Source of the DNA: a virus | IMG/VR virus record: IMGVR_UViG_3300014323_000042 | Span: 1 to 35,353 of that record | DNA length: 35,353 nt | Strand: one strand, 5' to 3' | Part shown: positions 15,671 through 25,249 of the stretch, in pieces | How the letters are laid out: each line of letters begins with the position of its first letter | Numbering within the stretch: the stretch's first letter is position 1 | Position numbers and translations under genes: made by a program | The notes under the pieces: generated by a model | What the model saw: the letters and a program-made list of their open reading frames with translations, nothing else | The model's database searches: none | What the model was told of the DNA's origin: nothing

Positions 15671-17077
15671 TTAAGTTTCTATTGCTGGCTTGTACGTTTG
15701 TATGGTTTCTTCAAATGTCCATGCAACTGCTTCTTTTGCTTTGTTTATATGAGGTGGAACGCGTAAAAAATAATTTTTCCTACTTCCGTCCGGCTCTAGG
15801 GACGAATTTTGAACTTTTACCATGACAATAGCTTCATCATTTTTTAAGTACTTAATATAAAGTTCGAGAGGTCTTCCATATTGATCAATATCTACGTCTA
15901 TCAATTTCGCGCCGGAATCTTGTAAATAGCGGCCAATGAAATCTCTATCATATTGGTCAATCATCACTCTTTTTATTTCAGAATTTTCTTCTATCTCTAT
16001 CAATTCAATTGTTATTTTCTCTGGGAATTTAACAACATATTCGGGAATTCTAACCCCATGTATAGCATAGATAGCCCATCCATCTGGGTACATGCAAGCG
16101 GCATCTTCTATCGAATGAAGCCTACCATGTTCATCTCTATTCAATACACAATGACGTTCTGAAACCAAACAAATATTTTTGTGTGGCGAAGCCCCGCCAG
16201 CTGATTTAGCTAAGTCTATTAATCCTACTAATTTTTCGGTTTGTTTTTTCAATCCAACTACTTCTCTAAAATATTCATAAAAAGCTAACCAATCGGCGTC
16301 ATGTTGGCCATACGCGGATTCACTCGCGGAATCCCACACGGAATCCCACACGGAATCCCCTACGGAAGCCCTCACGGAAGACCACACGTAAGAATTCACG
16401 CCTTCCCTCACGTCTTCCCACACGGAAGCACTCACGGAATCCCTCACGGAATCCCTCACGGAAGACCTCACGGAAGCACTCACGGAATCCCTCACGGAAG
16501 ACCTAACGGCTTTCCTCACGGAAGCACTCACGGAATCCCCTACGGAAGCCCTCACGGAAGACCACACGTAAGAATTCACGCCTTCCCTCACGTCTTCCCA
16601 CACGGAAGCACTCACGGAATCCATCACGGAATCCCTCACGGAATCCCAAACGGAAGAATTCACGGAATCCCTCACGGAATCCCTCACGGAAGAATTCACG
16701 GAATCCCTCACGGAAGACCTCACGGCTTCCCTCACGGAAGCACTCACGGAAGCCCACACGGAAGCCCAAACGGAAGAATTCACGGAATCCCACACGGAAG
16801 ACCTCACGGAAGCCATCACGGAAGCACTCACGGAAGCACTCACGGAATGCAATCTATTTTTATCTAATATAATTGTTCTTACTAATTCCTGGCTAAAAGG
16901 AGACCCGCACCAAACTATTTTTTTAGGTTTTTCTATATCAGCTAAAATATATAATTCATTGATAGCCCGTTCTGCTATTTTTCTATTTGCTGGTTCTATT
17001 GACAGCCCTATATTTATCCATTTTTCACGATATTCTATAAATTTTTCTTTCTGCTCTTCAGATAAAATATTAATCAA
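15671..17077 (-). CDS. DUF6745 protein interrupted by a 44-unit S-V-x-x tetrapeptide array
   Basis: A 468-residue protein of unknown function. Start is TTG, backed by AAGGAG 9 bases upstream and by overlap (TTGA) with the preceding stop. Residues 1-75 (WINIGLSIEPANRKIAERAI, KKIVWCGSP) and about 258-468 (DWLAFYEYF; YPDGWAIYAIHGVRIPEYVV; YFLRVPPHINKAKEAVAWTF) match my recollection of DUF6745 proteins, common in actinobacteria and other bacteria. Between them residues 78-253 are 44 units of four residues, mostly Ser-Val-x-x, with Arg, Trp, Ser, Asn or Gly at the third place and Asp, Ser, Ala or Glu at the fourth. It is the last gene of the early left operon and is coupled to the HEEH-motif gene upstream, the usual partner of this family as I recall. 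Biochemistry is unknown. Confidence 0.82.
   Translation of the reverse strand: MINILSEEQKEKFIEYREKWINIGLSIEPANRKIAERAINELYILADIEKPKKIVWCGSPFSQELVRTIILDKNRLHSVSASVSASVMASVRSSVWDSVNSSVWASVWASVSASVREAVRSSVRDSVNSSVRDSVRDSVNSSVWDSVRDSVMDSVSASVWEDVREGVNSYVWSSVRASVGDSVSASVRKAVRSSVRDSVSASVRSSVRDSVRDSVSASVWEDVREGVNSYVWSSVRASVGDSVWDSVWDSASESAYGQHDADWLAFYEYFREVVGLKKQTEKLVGLIDLAKSAGGASPHKNICLVSERHCVLNRDEHGRLHSIEDAACMYPDGWAIYAIHGVRIPEYVVKFPEKITIELIEIEENSEIKRVMIDQYDRDFIGRYLQDSGAKLIDVDIDQYGRPLELYIKYLKNDEAIVMVKVQNSSLEPDGSRKNYFLRVPPHINKAKEAVAWTFEETIQTYKPAIET
16349..16442. repeat. 94-bp segment duplicated inside the array, first copy
   Basis: This stretch is identical to 16529-16622, exactly 180 bp (15 units) away. 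In the protein this gives two copies of a block containing VWEDVREGVNSYVWSSVRAS, 60 residues apart. Exact identity among otherwise diverged units points to recent block duplication or gene conversion. Confidence 0.9.
16529..16622. repeat. 94-bp segment duplicated inside the array, second copy
   Basis: Exact copy of 16349-16442; the match ends at 16443 versus 16623 (C versus A) and at 16348 versus 16528 (A versus T). Confidence 0.9.
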
Positions 17078-17406
17078 TCTATTACGCTCCTTATCCCTAA
17101 AGGACTATAAATTCGCTGTCTTATTACTTCATATTTTCCTATAGGCAAAGTAATTGTATCGTGCTCTTCGTGCTGTAATTTTGTGTCTTTAATTACAAGT
17201 AGGAAAAATCTATTGCTATATTTCCCTTTCATCAACAGGGCATTCCCATCGTATATTGCATGTTTATGTCCTGTAGACTCTCCATGCGCTAATATGATCG
17301 CATTTTCTATTTCTTGGCCTTCTGTTGCTTTATATTTTTTATCTTCTGTTTCAGGTATATCTTTAATGGGTTTAATAAAGATATCCCCTTGGCGATATGA
17401 TTTCAT
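17074..17406 (-). CDS. HEEH-motif partner protein of DUF6745, unknown function
   Basis: A 110-residue protein, ribosome site CGGAG 9 bases before ATG, stop overlapping the DUF6745 start. Conserved-looking motifs: YRQGDIFIKP at the start, HGESTGHKHAI in the middle, LQHEEHDTITLPIGKYEVI and RQRIYSP near the end. These match a small protein that, as I recall, commonly sits directly before DUF6745 genes in bacteria. The six His/Glu residues in GHKHAI and HEEH could form a metal site in a small beta barrel; that is inference. It is likely to act with DUF6745, given the overlap and the family pairing. Confidence 0.8.
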   Translation of the reverse strand: MKSYRQGDIFIKPIKDIPETEDKKYKATEGQEIENAIILAHGESTGHKHAIYDGNALLMKGKYSNRFFLLVIKDTKLQHEEHDTITLPIGKYEVIRQRIYSPLGIRSVID

Positions 17407-18396
17407 TTATTTTATCTCCGATAGTTCTTCTATTTTTCTGATGCAGTCTTTATAAACCGTTATTTCATGAAATTTTGTAGTTTCTTCAAAAAAATCGGAT
17501 ATAACGATGACTGCCTTCTTGCCATCCTCAGTATTGCAAACAAATTTCACATACGTATTGAGGTGAACAGTTTCTAGCTCTTCAAAGAATCTCTTGAATT
17601 CAGAATTTTCATATTGCTTGCATGGAAATTGTATGGCTTCCGGCGCGAGAAAAACTTCTCGCTGTAGAGCATCTGATTTAGCCTCAATTTGCGCACGTTC
17701 CTCAGCTAGTCTGATTGCTTCAAGCTTTTGTTGTTCTGCAATGACAGATAACCTCTCTTCTTGTCGGATAACTTCCTCCTCCTTTATTTTTCTTTCTTGC
17801 TCCGCAATTGCCTCTAGGCGTTGTTTCTCAATTAGGCCTTCTTCAATTTTTTTATTTTCCTCCTCCGCAGCCCTGATTTTTTCTGTCTCAAGTTCCACTA
17901 ATCGTTTTTTCTCATACTCATATTTGGTAGTTTCAAGAGCCAGGATGCTCTCAAATTCTTGGTCGCTCATTGTAATTACTGGTGGAAATTCTAAAAAATT
18001 TGCATTCACTGCTTGCAACGCAAGTACTCTCGACTGCAACTTAGCGGCGCGTGCGTTTTCTTGTTCTCTGCGAATTTTCTCTTTTTCTTCATCAATGGCG
18101 CTTTCTTGAATTTCGAGGTGATGCTCAATTGGTAAGAGTAGGGACGTGATGCGCTTGGCTTCTGCATCCACAGCGCGGCCGTAGGAAAGAGAATCTTCTT
18201 TTAGGGATTTTCTGATAAGCTCGATGTTGACACGTGCGCTCTTGACGCATAATCTCGCAGCTTTAACTGTTTGATAACCTTGCTTGTCATGAACGCCATT
18301 TATTTTGAGCGGCATATAGTCATTGCGCATCTCGGAAATTTTCGCATCGGGCATGTTGAATTTTTGTAATTCGCTATATATAAGGCTTGTTTTCAT
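17407..18396 (-). CDS. Coiled-coil early phage protein, unknown
   Basis: A 329-residue protein with a good ribosome site (GAGGAACTATAAGA before ATG). Residues 1-115 are a helical domain (VKAARLCVKSARVNIELIRK, then RAVDAEAKRITSLLLPIEHH) of a kind seen in phage early proteins near RecT/Exo genes. About 115-245 is one long coiled coil (EEKEKIRREQENARAAKLQS, EQERKIKEEEVIRQEERLSV). The last 75 residues form a separate beta/alpha domain (HLNTYVKFVCNTEDGKKAVI). The overall plan resembles DUF1351-type phage proteins; I cannot confirm the family. Its stop touches the next start, so it is co-translated with the HEEH/DUF6745 pair. Confidence 0.75.
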   Translation of the reverse strand: MKTSLIYSELQKFNMPDAKISEMRNDYMPLKINGVHDKQGYQTVKAARLCVKSARVNIELIRKSLKEDSLSYGRAVDAEAKRITSLLLPIEHHLEIQESAIDEEKEKIRREQENARAAKLQSRVLALQAVNANFLEFPPVITMSDQEFESILALETTKYEYEKKRLVELETEKIRAAEEENKKIEEGLIEKQRLEAIAEQERKIKEEEVIRQEERLSVIAEQQKLEAIRLAEERAQIEAKSDALQREVFLAPEAIQFPCKQYENSEFKRFFEELETVHLNTYVKFVCNTEDGKKAVIVISDFFEETTKFHEITVYKDCIRKIEELSEIK

Positions 18397-19954: not shown

Positions 19955-20854
19955 CTACTCATTATCTACTTCTTTAGCCTTCAATTCGGCCAATTTATTC
20001 TTGTATAGTTCCCTAACTTTTATTTTGTCAGATTCCGGCAATTGTCTGGCGCAATCTGCAGCAACATCTAAATCATTCATGTCAGTTGCATCATTAATAA
20101 TTGATTCAATATCCTGCAAGCTTATGCATAAATCCTGCAAGCTTATGCCTAATTTGATAGGATCTTCTAGCTCAGTCTCAGGCATAGATATTACTTCTTC
20201 CTCGTGCTCCTCGTCTGTTTTTTCAGTTGCAGATAGCCTTGCTTGCAGACCGATAACCCCAGGTGATTTATTCTTTTCCTCCACGCTAATGACAGAATAA
20301 TGTTCTTTTGGTAAATCAATAGCCTCTTCTCTGAGAGCCAGTCCCTTTAACACATGAGGAAATAAATCCCTTAAAGTGAACCCGCGAGCGCGCATCTGTA
20401 GCATTCGATCAGGATATTGCTGCCAGGGGCCCCCTTTATTCCATAGAGCAGCGCGCTGAGCATCAGCAATGCTAAAGCTCCTAATCACAGTATCGCCACT
20501 CTTATTTTTTGCCTTACAGTAAGCTACCCTGGTTAAGCTTTTTATGTCGCCATCGGCCCACTCTTCGATTGATACGCAGTCTTCAGATGACCTAACAAGC
20601 GCTATTGCCATGTCACCCCATATTGAAGGTCGTCCATTAATAACCGAAATACTTTGGAGCGACTGCAATGCTGCAATACCTACCTCAGCCCCCATTTGAA
20701 TCGCAATAAAAGTATCTTCCGGCTTTCCTCGATAATCCTTTGGGGCAAAATTGCTGTTAGCAATCATTGTCGCGAACTTAAATGCCTCATCAAATGATTT
20801 CGGCGAATAAACAAAGGGTATATTTTGTGTGTTTTTAACTGTTTCTAAGCTCAT
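19955..20854 (-). CDS. recT: RecT-family single-strand annealing protein
   Basis: A 299-residue recombinase that anneals complementary single strands produced by the adjacent exonuclease. Recognisable RecT pattern: KFATMIANSNFAPKDYRGKP, then QMGAEVGIAALQSLQSISVI and NGRPSIWGDMAIALV, and finally YPDRMLQMRARGFTLRDLFP. The N-terminal about 190 residues are the core; the remainder is an acidic tail with a 7-residue tandem duplication (ISLQDLC, ISLQDIE). Start ATG has GGAG 8 bases upstream, inside the end of the exonuclease gene; the genes are 2 bases apart. The pair with YqaJ is the common RecE/RecT-like arrangement. Tail duplication may be recent. Confidence 0.88.
   Translation of the reverse strand: MSLETVKNTQNIPFVYSPKSFDEAFKFATMIANSNFAPKDYRGKPEDTFIAIQMGAEVGIAALQSLQSISVINGRPSIWGDMAIALVRSSEDCVSIEEWADGDIKSLTRVAYCKAKNKSGDTVIRSFSIADAQRAALWNKGGPWQQYPDRMLQMRARGFTLRDLFPHVLKGLALREEAIDLPKEHYSVISVEEKNKSPGVIGLQARLSATEKTDEEHEEEVISMPETELEDPIKLGISLQDLCISLQDIESIINDATDMNDLDVAADCARQLPESDKIKVRELYKNKLAELKAKEVDNE
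20111..20148. repeat. 21-bp-period tandem duplication in recT
   Basis: The 17-mer ATCCTGCAAGCTTATGC occurs at 20111-20127 and again at 20132-20148. The period of 21 bases adds seven residues in frame in the acidic tail of RecT. Confidence 0.85.
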
Positions 20855-20856
20855 TT

Positions 20857-21765
20857 CTAGAACTCCATCATATTTAATCTGAAAACCCGAGAATCAACTT
20901 CATTAGTATATTTCTCAAACAAAAGGGGATATTCCTTACGAAATGAGCTCTGTTCAAGGCGCTTCGACGTCTGGTTTTTCCAGGTCGCCATAATAAATCC
21001 AGTAGGAGATATAAGTGATTCATAGTCCTGCATCTCTAGCATCATCTGTGTTTCGAAATGCTGTTTTTGTTGTGTCAAATTTTTAATCTGACGCTTGATG
21101 TCGCGAAGATTTTCAAAAATTCCAACAATTTCGTTTGTTGCAATTTTTGATGACCCATTACGTGCGTCTTTCCAAAGTGCGCGAGCATCATCTATTGTTT
21201 TTGCGTCTGGCGGAACTTCAGCGAGCACATTCCCATGCCAAAATTTTCGCTCCATTTCTATAACGTCTCTTTCCAGGTCAGGGTTCCTATGGTATGTATA
21301 AATAAATAGCTCTGGTCGGTCAAAAAACACAGCAACATCTACCTTTTCTGCGTCATACACGATTGCATAATGTATCATTTGCAAAAGTACATCATCTGGC
21401 ATTTTATCTGTTCCAGGTTCACCCCATAATGGATTGACAAAGGTGCTCATATATTTAGCATCTACGATAATTTTATTGCAGATACCATCAAGATTTCCAA
21501 ACATCCAGGGATATTCGCGGCTAAACTTCATTTCTGGCGAGCGAGCAATAGAATAGCCCGTAAATTCCTCATACAAATCTAGTATAATTGGCTCCATGAT
21601 ATGCCCGTGCTTCTGATTTTTCGTCATTTCTCTCGGTTCAGAAAGCCCCAATTTGTCAAGATATACGTCAACAGCTGTCCGATAACTTGAAAGTCCCGCG
21701 ATTGCAGCAATGTCAGAGCCGCCTAACCCGCGCCTACGTTGTAATAATTGTTCTTCAGTTAACAT
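20857..21765 (-). CDS. YqaJ-type (lambda Exo-like) recombination exonuclease
   Basis: A 302-residue nuclease that resects double-strand ends for RecT. Family hallmarks: RRRGLGGSDIAAIAGLSSYR near the N-terminus, GHIMEPIILDLYEE (first acidic residue of the PD-(D/E)xK core), then GNLDGI and IVDAKYMS (Asp plus D-x-K), and LLQMIHYAIVYDAEKVDVAV. The residues for a working active site therefore appear intact. The C-terminal third is a long helix followed by SFRKEYPLLFEKYT. It starts one base after the csrA stop, with the ribosome site GAGGGGAAG inside csrA, so both are made from one message. Good confidence. Confidence 0.88.
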   Translation of the reverse strand: MLTEEQLLQRRRGLGGSDIAAIAGLSSYRTAVDVYLDKLGLSEPREMTKNQKHGHIMEPIILDLYEEFTGYSIARSPEMKFSREYPWMFGNLDGICNKIIVDAKYMSTFVNPLWGEPGTDKMPDDVLLQMIHYAIVYDAEKVDVAVFFDRPELFIYTYHRNPDLERDVIEMERKFWHGNVLAEVPPDAKTIDDARALWKDARNGSSKIATNEIVGIFENLRDIKRQIKNLTQQKQHFETQMMLEMQDYESLISPTGFIMATWKNQTSKRLEQSSFRKEYPLLFEKYTNEVDSRVFRLNMMEF

Positions 21766-24373: not shown

Positions 24374-25249
24374 ATGAGGTACAAAACTGTTGATGTTCGC
24401 CTGTGGGGGGACTCCAAATTTAGGTCGCTTTCGGGCAGTAAACCGAGCGCTCAAGGATTATTTATTTATTTTCTCATCAATCCCTATCAACAGGCATTCC
24501 CAGGTCTATACAAAGTGAGCGAAACAGTGCTGATGGATGACCTGGGTTGGGGCGGAAGCCTTTCGGGAGGGTTTCGGAAAGCCTTTCGGGAGGTATTAGC
24601 GAAGGGCCTCGCAAGGTATGATTTCGATGCCCGCGTTTTGTTCGTACAGAACGCTATCCGGTATAACCTACCACAATCACCCAATGTTATCCGAAGTTGG
24701 GTGCGAAATTTTGATGAGATTCCAGAGTGTAAATTAAAAGTCATTGCATATCATACAGTTAAAAAAGAATTGGAAAGCCTTTCGGAAGGGTTTCGGAAAG
24801 CCTTTCGGGAAGCCTTTCGGGAGCCCTTCGCTAATCAAGAACAAGAACAAGAACAAGACCAAGAACATAATACTATCGTTCGAAACTCCGAGCCGACGAA
24901 AAAAAAATCTTCATCACCCATCTCACTTTTGCCAGAGGAGGAGGATGGGTACCAGCAATTCAAAAAAATTTATCCCCGGCAGGCAGGGTGGGCTGATGCA
25001 AAAAAAGCTTGGAGGCAGGTTGACGCTACGAAATCACTGCAAATAATCCTAAAAAACATAGCTGAAAGACAGGATTTTAAAACCAGGGAGAAAAAATTTA
25101 TCCCACTTCCAGCCACATTTTTACGGGGAGAGCGATGGAATGATAAAGATTTTGATGATGAATTTACACCAATTGAATCGCAAGAAGACCCGCAAATTAA
25201 GCGCGTAATGGAGATTTTAGAGAAGAACAAACAGGAGGAAAAATACTGA
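24374..25249 (+). CDS. Replication initiation protein (lambda O-like role) with internal origin
   Basis: A 291-residue protein with ribosome site GGAG 11 bases before ATG. The N-terminal about 130 residues form a winged-helix-type domain found in phage replication proteins (VDVRLWGDSKFRSLSGSKPS, QGLFIYFLINPYQQAFPGLY, RVLFVQNAIRYNLPQSPNVI). Two blocks of F-R-K-A-F-R-E peptides (about residues 60-76 and 137-154) are translated from DNA iterons. A Glu/Gln run (EQEQEQDQEH) and Ser/Lys linker lead to a C-terminal domain with YQQFKKIYPRQAGWADAKKA, a pattern common at the ends of such proteins. It overlaps the next gene by one base (TGATG). It should melt the origin and recruit the helicase loader. 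Confidence 0.8.
   Translation: MRYKTVDVRLWGDSKFRSLSGSKPSAQGLFIYFLINPYQQAFPGLYKVSETVLMDDLGWGGSLSGGFRKAFREVLAKGLARYDFDARVLFVQNAIRYNLPQSPNVIRSWVRNFDEIPECKLKVIAYHTVKKELESLSEGFRKAFREAFREPFANQEQEQEQDQEHNTIVRNSEPTKKKSSSPISLLPEEEDGYQQFKKIYPRQAGWADAKKAWRQVDATKSLQIILKNIAERQDFKTREKKFIPLPATFLRGERWNDKDFDDEFTPIESQEDPQIKRVMEILEKNKQEEKY
24556..24590 (+). repeat. Origin iterons, cluster 1
   Basis: Two copies of AAGCCTTTCGGG at 24556-24567 and 24579-24590, 23 bp apart, with GGTTTCGG between them. They lie inside the replication gene. Confidence 0.75.
24775..24821 (+). repeat. Origin iterons, cluster 2
   Basis: Three copies of the same 12-mer at 24775-24786 (last base A), 24798-24809 and 24810-24821; the first two are again 23 bp apart. 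Directly behind is an AT-rich stretch with AACAAG repeats (24838-24870), the usual layout of iterons followed by a melting region in an O-type origin. Confidence 0.75.

Follow-up and report, generated by a model that had tools for sequence, protein, structure and literature searches.

Hypervariable tetrapeptide arrays in phage DUF6745 proteins: an exchangeable module with a possible role in counter-defence

The tetrapeptide array carried by the DUF6745 protein of the phage analysed here belongs to an exchangeable, fast-evolving type of module. The spread of this type of array into DUF6745 proteins with a constant partner, the HEEH protein, and over a range of lattices is new, as are the two-residue diversity pattern found over 60 arrays, the banks of separate array mini-genes and the occurrence on several scaffolds. 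By analogy with the Tweety gp54 protein, the gene pair may constitute a retunable counter-defence factor in which the array contacts a changing target, a tentative reading to which we give somewhat less than an even chance.

Results

The DUF6745 gene and its operon

The window, i.e. the whole stretch of DNA analysed, covers an IMG/VR virus record in full (35,353 bases). The phage in it is temperate and podovirus-like, with genes for a terminase, a repressor, RecE and RecT as well as a P22-type portal and a scaffold protein. The left operon runs from the repressor via RecE, RecT, several small genes and a 329-aa gene to HEEH and DUF6745 (Table 1). An initial sequence-only reading had placed the pair at the end of an early left operon, in agreement with the repressor, RecE and RecT genes found upstream on the same strand. 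No close relatives of the phage were found via the genes neighbouring the pair, although one RecT relative shares 53% identity, and the portal shares only ~25% identity with P22-like portals. The DNA of the DUF6745–HEEH pair gave 0 matches when searched against 50,697 phage records. Further short tandem repeats (12-bp, 23-bp and 6-bp) are present at 24772-24867, inside a DnaD-like replication gene (24374-25249).

Table 1 Features of the DUF6745–HEEH locus and its operon context in the window
Feature	Position	Strand	Remarks
DUF6745 protein gene, last gene of the operon	15671..17077	-	468 aa, TTG start
DUF6745 domain (PF20530), residues 254-468	15674..16318	-	E = 6.6e-48; pLDDT 87-97 over most
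Array of 44 tetrapeptide units, residues 78-253	16319..16846	-	mostly Ser-Val-x-x; 12-bp repeats
Conserved N-terminal helical domain, residues 1 to ~75	16853..17077	-	own HMM; pLDDT 91-98
HEEH partner gene	17074..17406	-	110 aa, phrog_27831; GHxH and HxxH motifs conserved; all-beta model
AAGGAG, ribosome-binding-site-like	17087..17092	-	~9 nt before DUF6745 TTG start (sequence read)
Upstream gene, same operon	17407..18396	-	329 aa, phrog_16469; not conserved partner
RecT-like annealing protein gene (context)	19955..20854	-	same operon
RecE-like exonuclease gene (context)	20857..21765	-	same operon

The array of 44 four-residue units reported in the initial reading was re-found in the DUF6745 ORF. 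The same reading had assigned both flanks to DUF6745, which holds for residues 254-468 (PF20530 profile positions 8-206 of 206, 163.2 bits vs a cut-off of 27). However, the N-terminal flank lies outside the Pfam model and forms a separate domain, which our own HMM detects in 144 of 181 DUF6745 ORFs. Consequently, DUF6745 is not split by the array as had been proposed; rather, the array precedes the PF20530 domain and sits between it and the N-terminal domain. TRF reported a 12-bp unit in 43.8 copies (16323-16847, score 441) together with an 84-bp higher-order period (score 538), and a block of seven units (units 20-26) recurs exactly 15 units later, which was reached by 0/200 shuffled arrays. 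The window array is less regular than others, with an imperfect lattice (0.82 and 0.98) and other Val codons in five units. The strand opposite the array is also open over 188 aa (16301-16867, plus strand), a by-product of the 12-bp repeat.

An AlphaFold2 model of the protein, obtained with 56 aligned sequences, shows pLDDT values of ~91-98 for the N-terminal and ~87-97 for the C-terminal domain. The array is drawn as helices at pLDDT 42-77, i.e. unreliably, and the solenoid or long helix suggested from the sequence gains no support from it. A continuous stable helix seems doubtful because some arrays are Gly-rich, e.g. those with GGQL repeats, and unit lags compared across arrays revealed no common period that could define a structural register. 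Foldseek searches of the DUF6745 domain and of HEEH against the PDB gave no match at E ≤ 0.001, and the best VIA Z values in the fold search were 4.4 and 3.0, respectively.

The HEEH partner

The partner gene was confirmed as a 110-residue HEEH gene whose ORF overlaps that of DUF6745 by 4 bases. The protein, which contains the stretch ...LQHEEHDTI..., matches phrog_27831 over residues 4-110 (E = 2e-15). Among 58 aligned members, G7, G46, H49, H82 and D110 are invariant and Q6, D8, E43, H79, G90, Q97, R106 and V108 nearly so. The all-beta structure model has a mean pLDDT of 87.5, and the histidine pairs suggest a putative metal site; no solved relative was found by sequence search. The initial reading had named HEEH as the usual neighbour of DUF6745 in bacteria, and it adjoins DUF6745 on the same strand at 78/78 cellular and 47/53 viral loci with enough flank, adjacency not being part of the Pfam definition of DUF6745. 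The two genes are thus one unit, and besides HEEH no gene of the window was widely found near viral DUF6745 genes.

PADLOC holds no model of the pair and gave no match for HEEH or cellular DUF6745. The sole hit, by its nicking-endonuclease model PDLC03396, is to residues 81-155 of the window DUF6745 protein (P0001), i.e. to the array and not to the scaffold domains (E = 7e-10), and is probably low-complexity similarity. Among the papers searched none named 'DUF6745' or 'DUF7666', and nothing useful on STM4011-4015 was found.

Distribution and composition of the arrays

Since scans of viral contigs with single proteins gave none or one relative, alignments were used instead, and a profile scan returned 147 viral relatives, 80 of which were kept. 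Arrays are present in 68 of the 86 viral DUF6745 proteins counted, mostly directly before the DUF6745 domain. Cellular DUF6745 proteins hardly ever carry one (5/80 by score); one of these five loci (L144) represents low-complexity readthrough and L102-L104 are prophage-like. Arrays range from ~10 to >100 units, and many metagenome contigs stop inside the array. The first two residues form a lattice (SV, QV, SL, QL, AV, NI or AT) that is constant within each protein, while residues 3 and 4 vary, as had been noted for the window. Over all arrays, R, G and W together account for 72% of the third residues, and D, G and A for 79% of the fourth. Four amino acids are nearly absent: of 7800 array residues, 13 are Pro, 14 Lys, 2 Phe and none Cys. 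Arrays were also found in sequenced isolates, namely in a Mycobacterium abscessus prophage (L005) and in two copies in a Nocardia strain, and are therefore not artefacts of metagenome assembly. Decay was considered for the frameshifted Nocardia copy (L007) and rejected, as the disruption consists of two single-base indels, both absent from the otherwise identical second copy of the strain.

Several loci depart from the common layout. One phage contig carries three DUF6745 genes in tandem, all without an array (L083:2518-6974). On contig IMGVR_UViG_3300047576_000028 two copies (L058 and L062) lie ~10 kb apart with C-domain DNA 99.5% identical, the array region of one being frame-disrupted; this doubling could be a duplication or an assembly error. 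Elsewhere, a pentapeptide-repeat protein is encoded ~1.3 kb upstream of the HEEH–DUF6745 pair (L002:2642-3193), and a phage with a DUF6745 array has a second repeat ORF of GSGDGYG type (L013:8111-9019).

Nucleotide pattern and turnover

The nucleotide pattern was studied in 60 arrays of at least 10 units. Positions 1-6, 9 and 12 of the 12-bp unit, synonymous sites included, are strictly invariant in 30/60 arrays, whereas position 7 is polymorphic in all 60, position 11 in 77% and position 8 in 48%. Codon-variant pairs among the units comprise 577 amino-acid-changing vs 24 synonymous cases, against a synonymous expectation of ~27% (from every possible single-base change to the consensus units, with sites mutating alike), noting that pairs inside one array are not independent observations. 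AGG and CGN arginine codons co-occur in 1/58 arrays. Judged from these sequences, the pattern would best be explained if arrays are homogenised while selection favours different amino acids at two residues of the unit.

Turnover of the array is directly visible between close relatives. The phages L024 and L066 are 98.7% and 98.6% identical in the DNA of the N- and C-terminal parts, but their arrays have 20 and 33 units, respectively, with different letters; the proposed free drift in array length is thus seen between near-identical phages. Similarly, L076 and L090 are 97-99.9% identical in neighbouring sequence vs 71-86%, plus indels, in their separate array genes. Block duplications were observed in the window array and several others. 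Conversely, repeated blocks in the 70-unit array of L104 are no commoner than in shuffled arrays (p = 0.83).

Array genes and other scaffolds

Several viral DUF6745 proteins are array-less, and at seven of their loci separate array mini-genes lie alongside: ~7 in tandem in L029, ~7 in L040, at least 5 in L064, and a single copy or a few in each of L078, L082, L090 and L076. The split forms occupy at least three places among the fused forms in a tree of the DUF6745 domain, from which only the split placements were used (L028, L045, L059 and L065, labelled 'none', carry truncated arrays). A mere spacer between domains cannot be supplied as a separate protein; from the gene layout it would follow that the array of split-form phages has to function as an independent module. 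The tandem mini-genes of L029 (5612-7171), L040 (3788-6741) and L064 are array-only, are arranged around the array-less DUF6745 gene and have common start and end motifs, those of the banks being MIDPG..LEEES, VIPLGKPL..LREDLTP and MKSV...

DNA-pattern scans for SV and AA arrays recovered DUF6745 proteins and, besides them, unrelated ones: DUF7666 proteins, mini-genes standing alone and a family whose C-terminal motif is SFDGxxWRLHxG. The last of these is a second phage scaffold with SV arrays (L191, L194, L199, L202, L203, L207 and L208), for which the four proteins tested gave no Pfam match. The phage proteins L206, L211, L214 and L218 combine tetrapeptide arrays with DUF7666 matches, two of them above cut-off, and L206 additionally matches RIIB PHROGs. 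These proteins share the 12-bp tetrapeptide array with the window protein, and L206 the SV lattice too, but the scaffold domain is unrelated.

Relation to Tweety gp54

The pair had been put forward as a candidate undescribed phage system. This stands for the DUF6745/HEEH setting, but not for the kind of array, which has been known since 2007 from gp54 of mycobacteriophage Tweety and from relatives of that protein, with 12-bp units and invariant third codon positions (PMC2884959). In Tweety gp54 (phrog_3416), as in the window protein, an array of 12-bp tetrapeptide units, here 40-48 of them, is enclosed by unique N- and C-terminal parts. As in the window-type arrays, residues 1 and 2 and the third codon positions are constant, W and G occur at residue 3 and the copy number varies between near relatives. 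However, the lattice is Ala-Ala rather than Ser-Val, and the neighbours gp53 and gp55 have no HEEH match. Our N-terminal, C-terminal and HEEH models gave no match to Tweety gp53-55, the flanks thus not being homologous, and the window protein did not match phrog_3416. Another variable-copy short repeat inside a phage gene, which we liken to the array by its description, is a 24-bp element and not a tetrapeptide.

Tweety gp54 is the sole array protein of this kind that was found with a functional study. According to two reviews, the number of gp54 repeats is raised or lowered in Tweety mutants that escape the prophage defences of Phrann and MichelleMyBell, and gp54 is in the author's view a tunable counter-defence protein (PMC9262239, PMC8549241). 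Counter-defence is thus shown by escape mutants for gp54, whereas for the window protein it would hold by analogy.

Discussion

We favour, tentatively, a counter-defence role of the window pair, because of the gp54 precedent together with the diversity and turnover of the arrays, the separate array modules and the position in the operon. An action on the host or on rival phages, as suggested in the initial reading, is plausible. The pair would be an early phage unit of two genes, one for HEEH, a small beta protein, and the other for a scaffold built from the N-terminal helical domain, the hypervariable array and the DUF6745 domain. The array may form the contact surface for an ever-changing protein target, most likely a defence component encoded by a prophage or the host, and gain, loss and swapping of units would allow the phage to retune which variant of the target is bound. 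The DUF6745 and HEEH parts would perform the constant step, and the whole would work in counter-defence like Tweety gp54. As the gp54 flanks are not homologous, the functional link is by analogy only.

An unlikely alternative, although the strongest of those considered, is that the array serves as a ruler or spacer whose sole task is to fix how far apart, and at what angle, the N-terminal and DUF6745 domains stand, with its variable letters mattering little. The published gp54 model gives the array this use, gp54 escape mutants differ in repeat number (PMC9262239), and the window array, of a kind that varies in length, is drawn as a helix between two well-modelled domains. However, the mini-genes beside array-less DUF6745 cannot space the domains of that protein, the strong excess of amino-acid changes is found at residues 3 and 4, and some DUF6745 proteins have almost no linker.

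It is also unlikely, and slightly more so, that the phage pair simply acts as the chromosomal DUF6745–HEEH pair does, with the array as a substrate or docking surface for maturation enzymes of the host. The C-terminal domain and the same-strand HEEH gene are shared with actinobacterial DUF6745 (PF20530), which in contrast to the window protein is without the tetrapeptide array. In Actinomycetes the cellular pair adjoins STM4011-4015 genes, encoding radical SAM, hydrolase, ATP-grasp-like and LRR-like proteins, and STM401x genes are found at 67/80 cellular loci. Beside STM4011-4015 in Deinococcus and Methylobacterium (L009, L011 and L012), an LRR-like repeat replaces the N-terminal part of DUF6745, showing that the scaffold tolerates different repeat modules. 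Both observations would fit a shared biochemistry. Nevertheless, STM401x genes were found at none of the viral DUF6745 loci, Obscuribacterales pairs are also without them, and the fast turnover of the array is left unexplained. Since most cellular pairs stand beside STM4011-4015 without arrays, the core activity may lie outside phage conflict.

We consider it improbable that the array is a sequence-reading code, in which the two variable residues of a unit recognise one element of a linear target, be it nucleic acid or a repetitive polymer. TAL-effector repeats, helical repeats of 33-35 residues, read DNA in this manner and similarly place two variable residues on a near-invariant framework, but they differ from the array in size and show no homology to it. 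In line with such a code, two residues of each unit are near-maximally variable on a lattice that is constant, regular arrays have ~6 unit types, and the order of units in several long arrays (e.g. L104) cannot be told from random. Against it, no tetrapeptide fold of this sort is known and the array model is unreliable; moreover, the units are smaller than known repeats that read nucleic acid, and the alphabets differ between proteins.

Selfish or neutral repeat expansion without function appears very unlikely. Slippage enlarges 12-bp repeats in frame, and the block duplications of the window and several other arrays are what it would leave behind, but it does not account for the excess of amino-acid-changing variants, the near-absence of Pro, Cys, Lys and Phe, or the recurrence of arrays with intact frames in many lineages and scaffolds, and the frameshifted Nocardia copy is explained by its two indels. 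Finally, targeted hypermutation by a diversity-generating retroelement or the like would restrict variation to fixed bases of the unit, as observed, but is highly improbable and its retroelement form was rejected, since no PF00078 reverse transcriptase was found in the window record or 25 related records, some of them fragments (the search was positive in 3/14 control genomes), T and G make up the variable bases, joined by A or C at position 7, in contrast to adenine-templated variation, and the synonymous arginine codon types hardly mix.

Beyond the proposed counter-defence role of the window pair, phages might have in common a modular polymer for recognition, with two residues in each four-residue unit carrying information, supplied in cis or in trans on several unrelated scaffolds and encoding the target in the order of its units, although we rate this broader proposal as rather improbable. 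If it were true, specificity would be rewritten by shuffling 12-bp units, and a unit order that carries specificity would be a new modular recognition code. The array of Tweety gp54 was formerly a curiosity of one mycobacteriophage group and is now found across many phages; one tunable counter-defence protein may in this way become a testable general class, which would provide the first functional lead for HEEH and for the widespread DUF6745.
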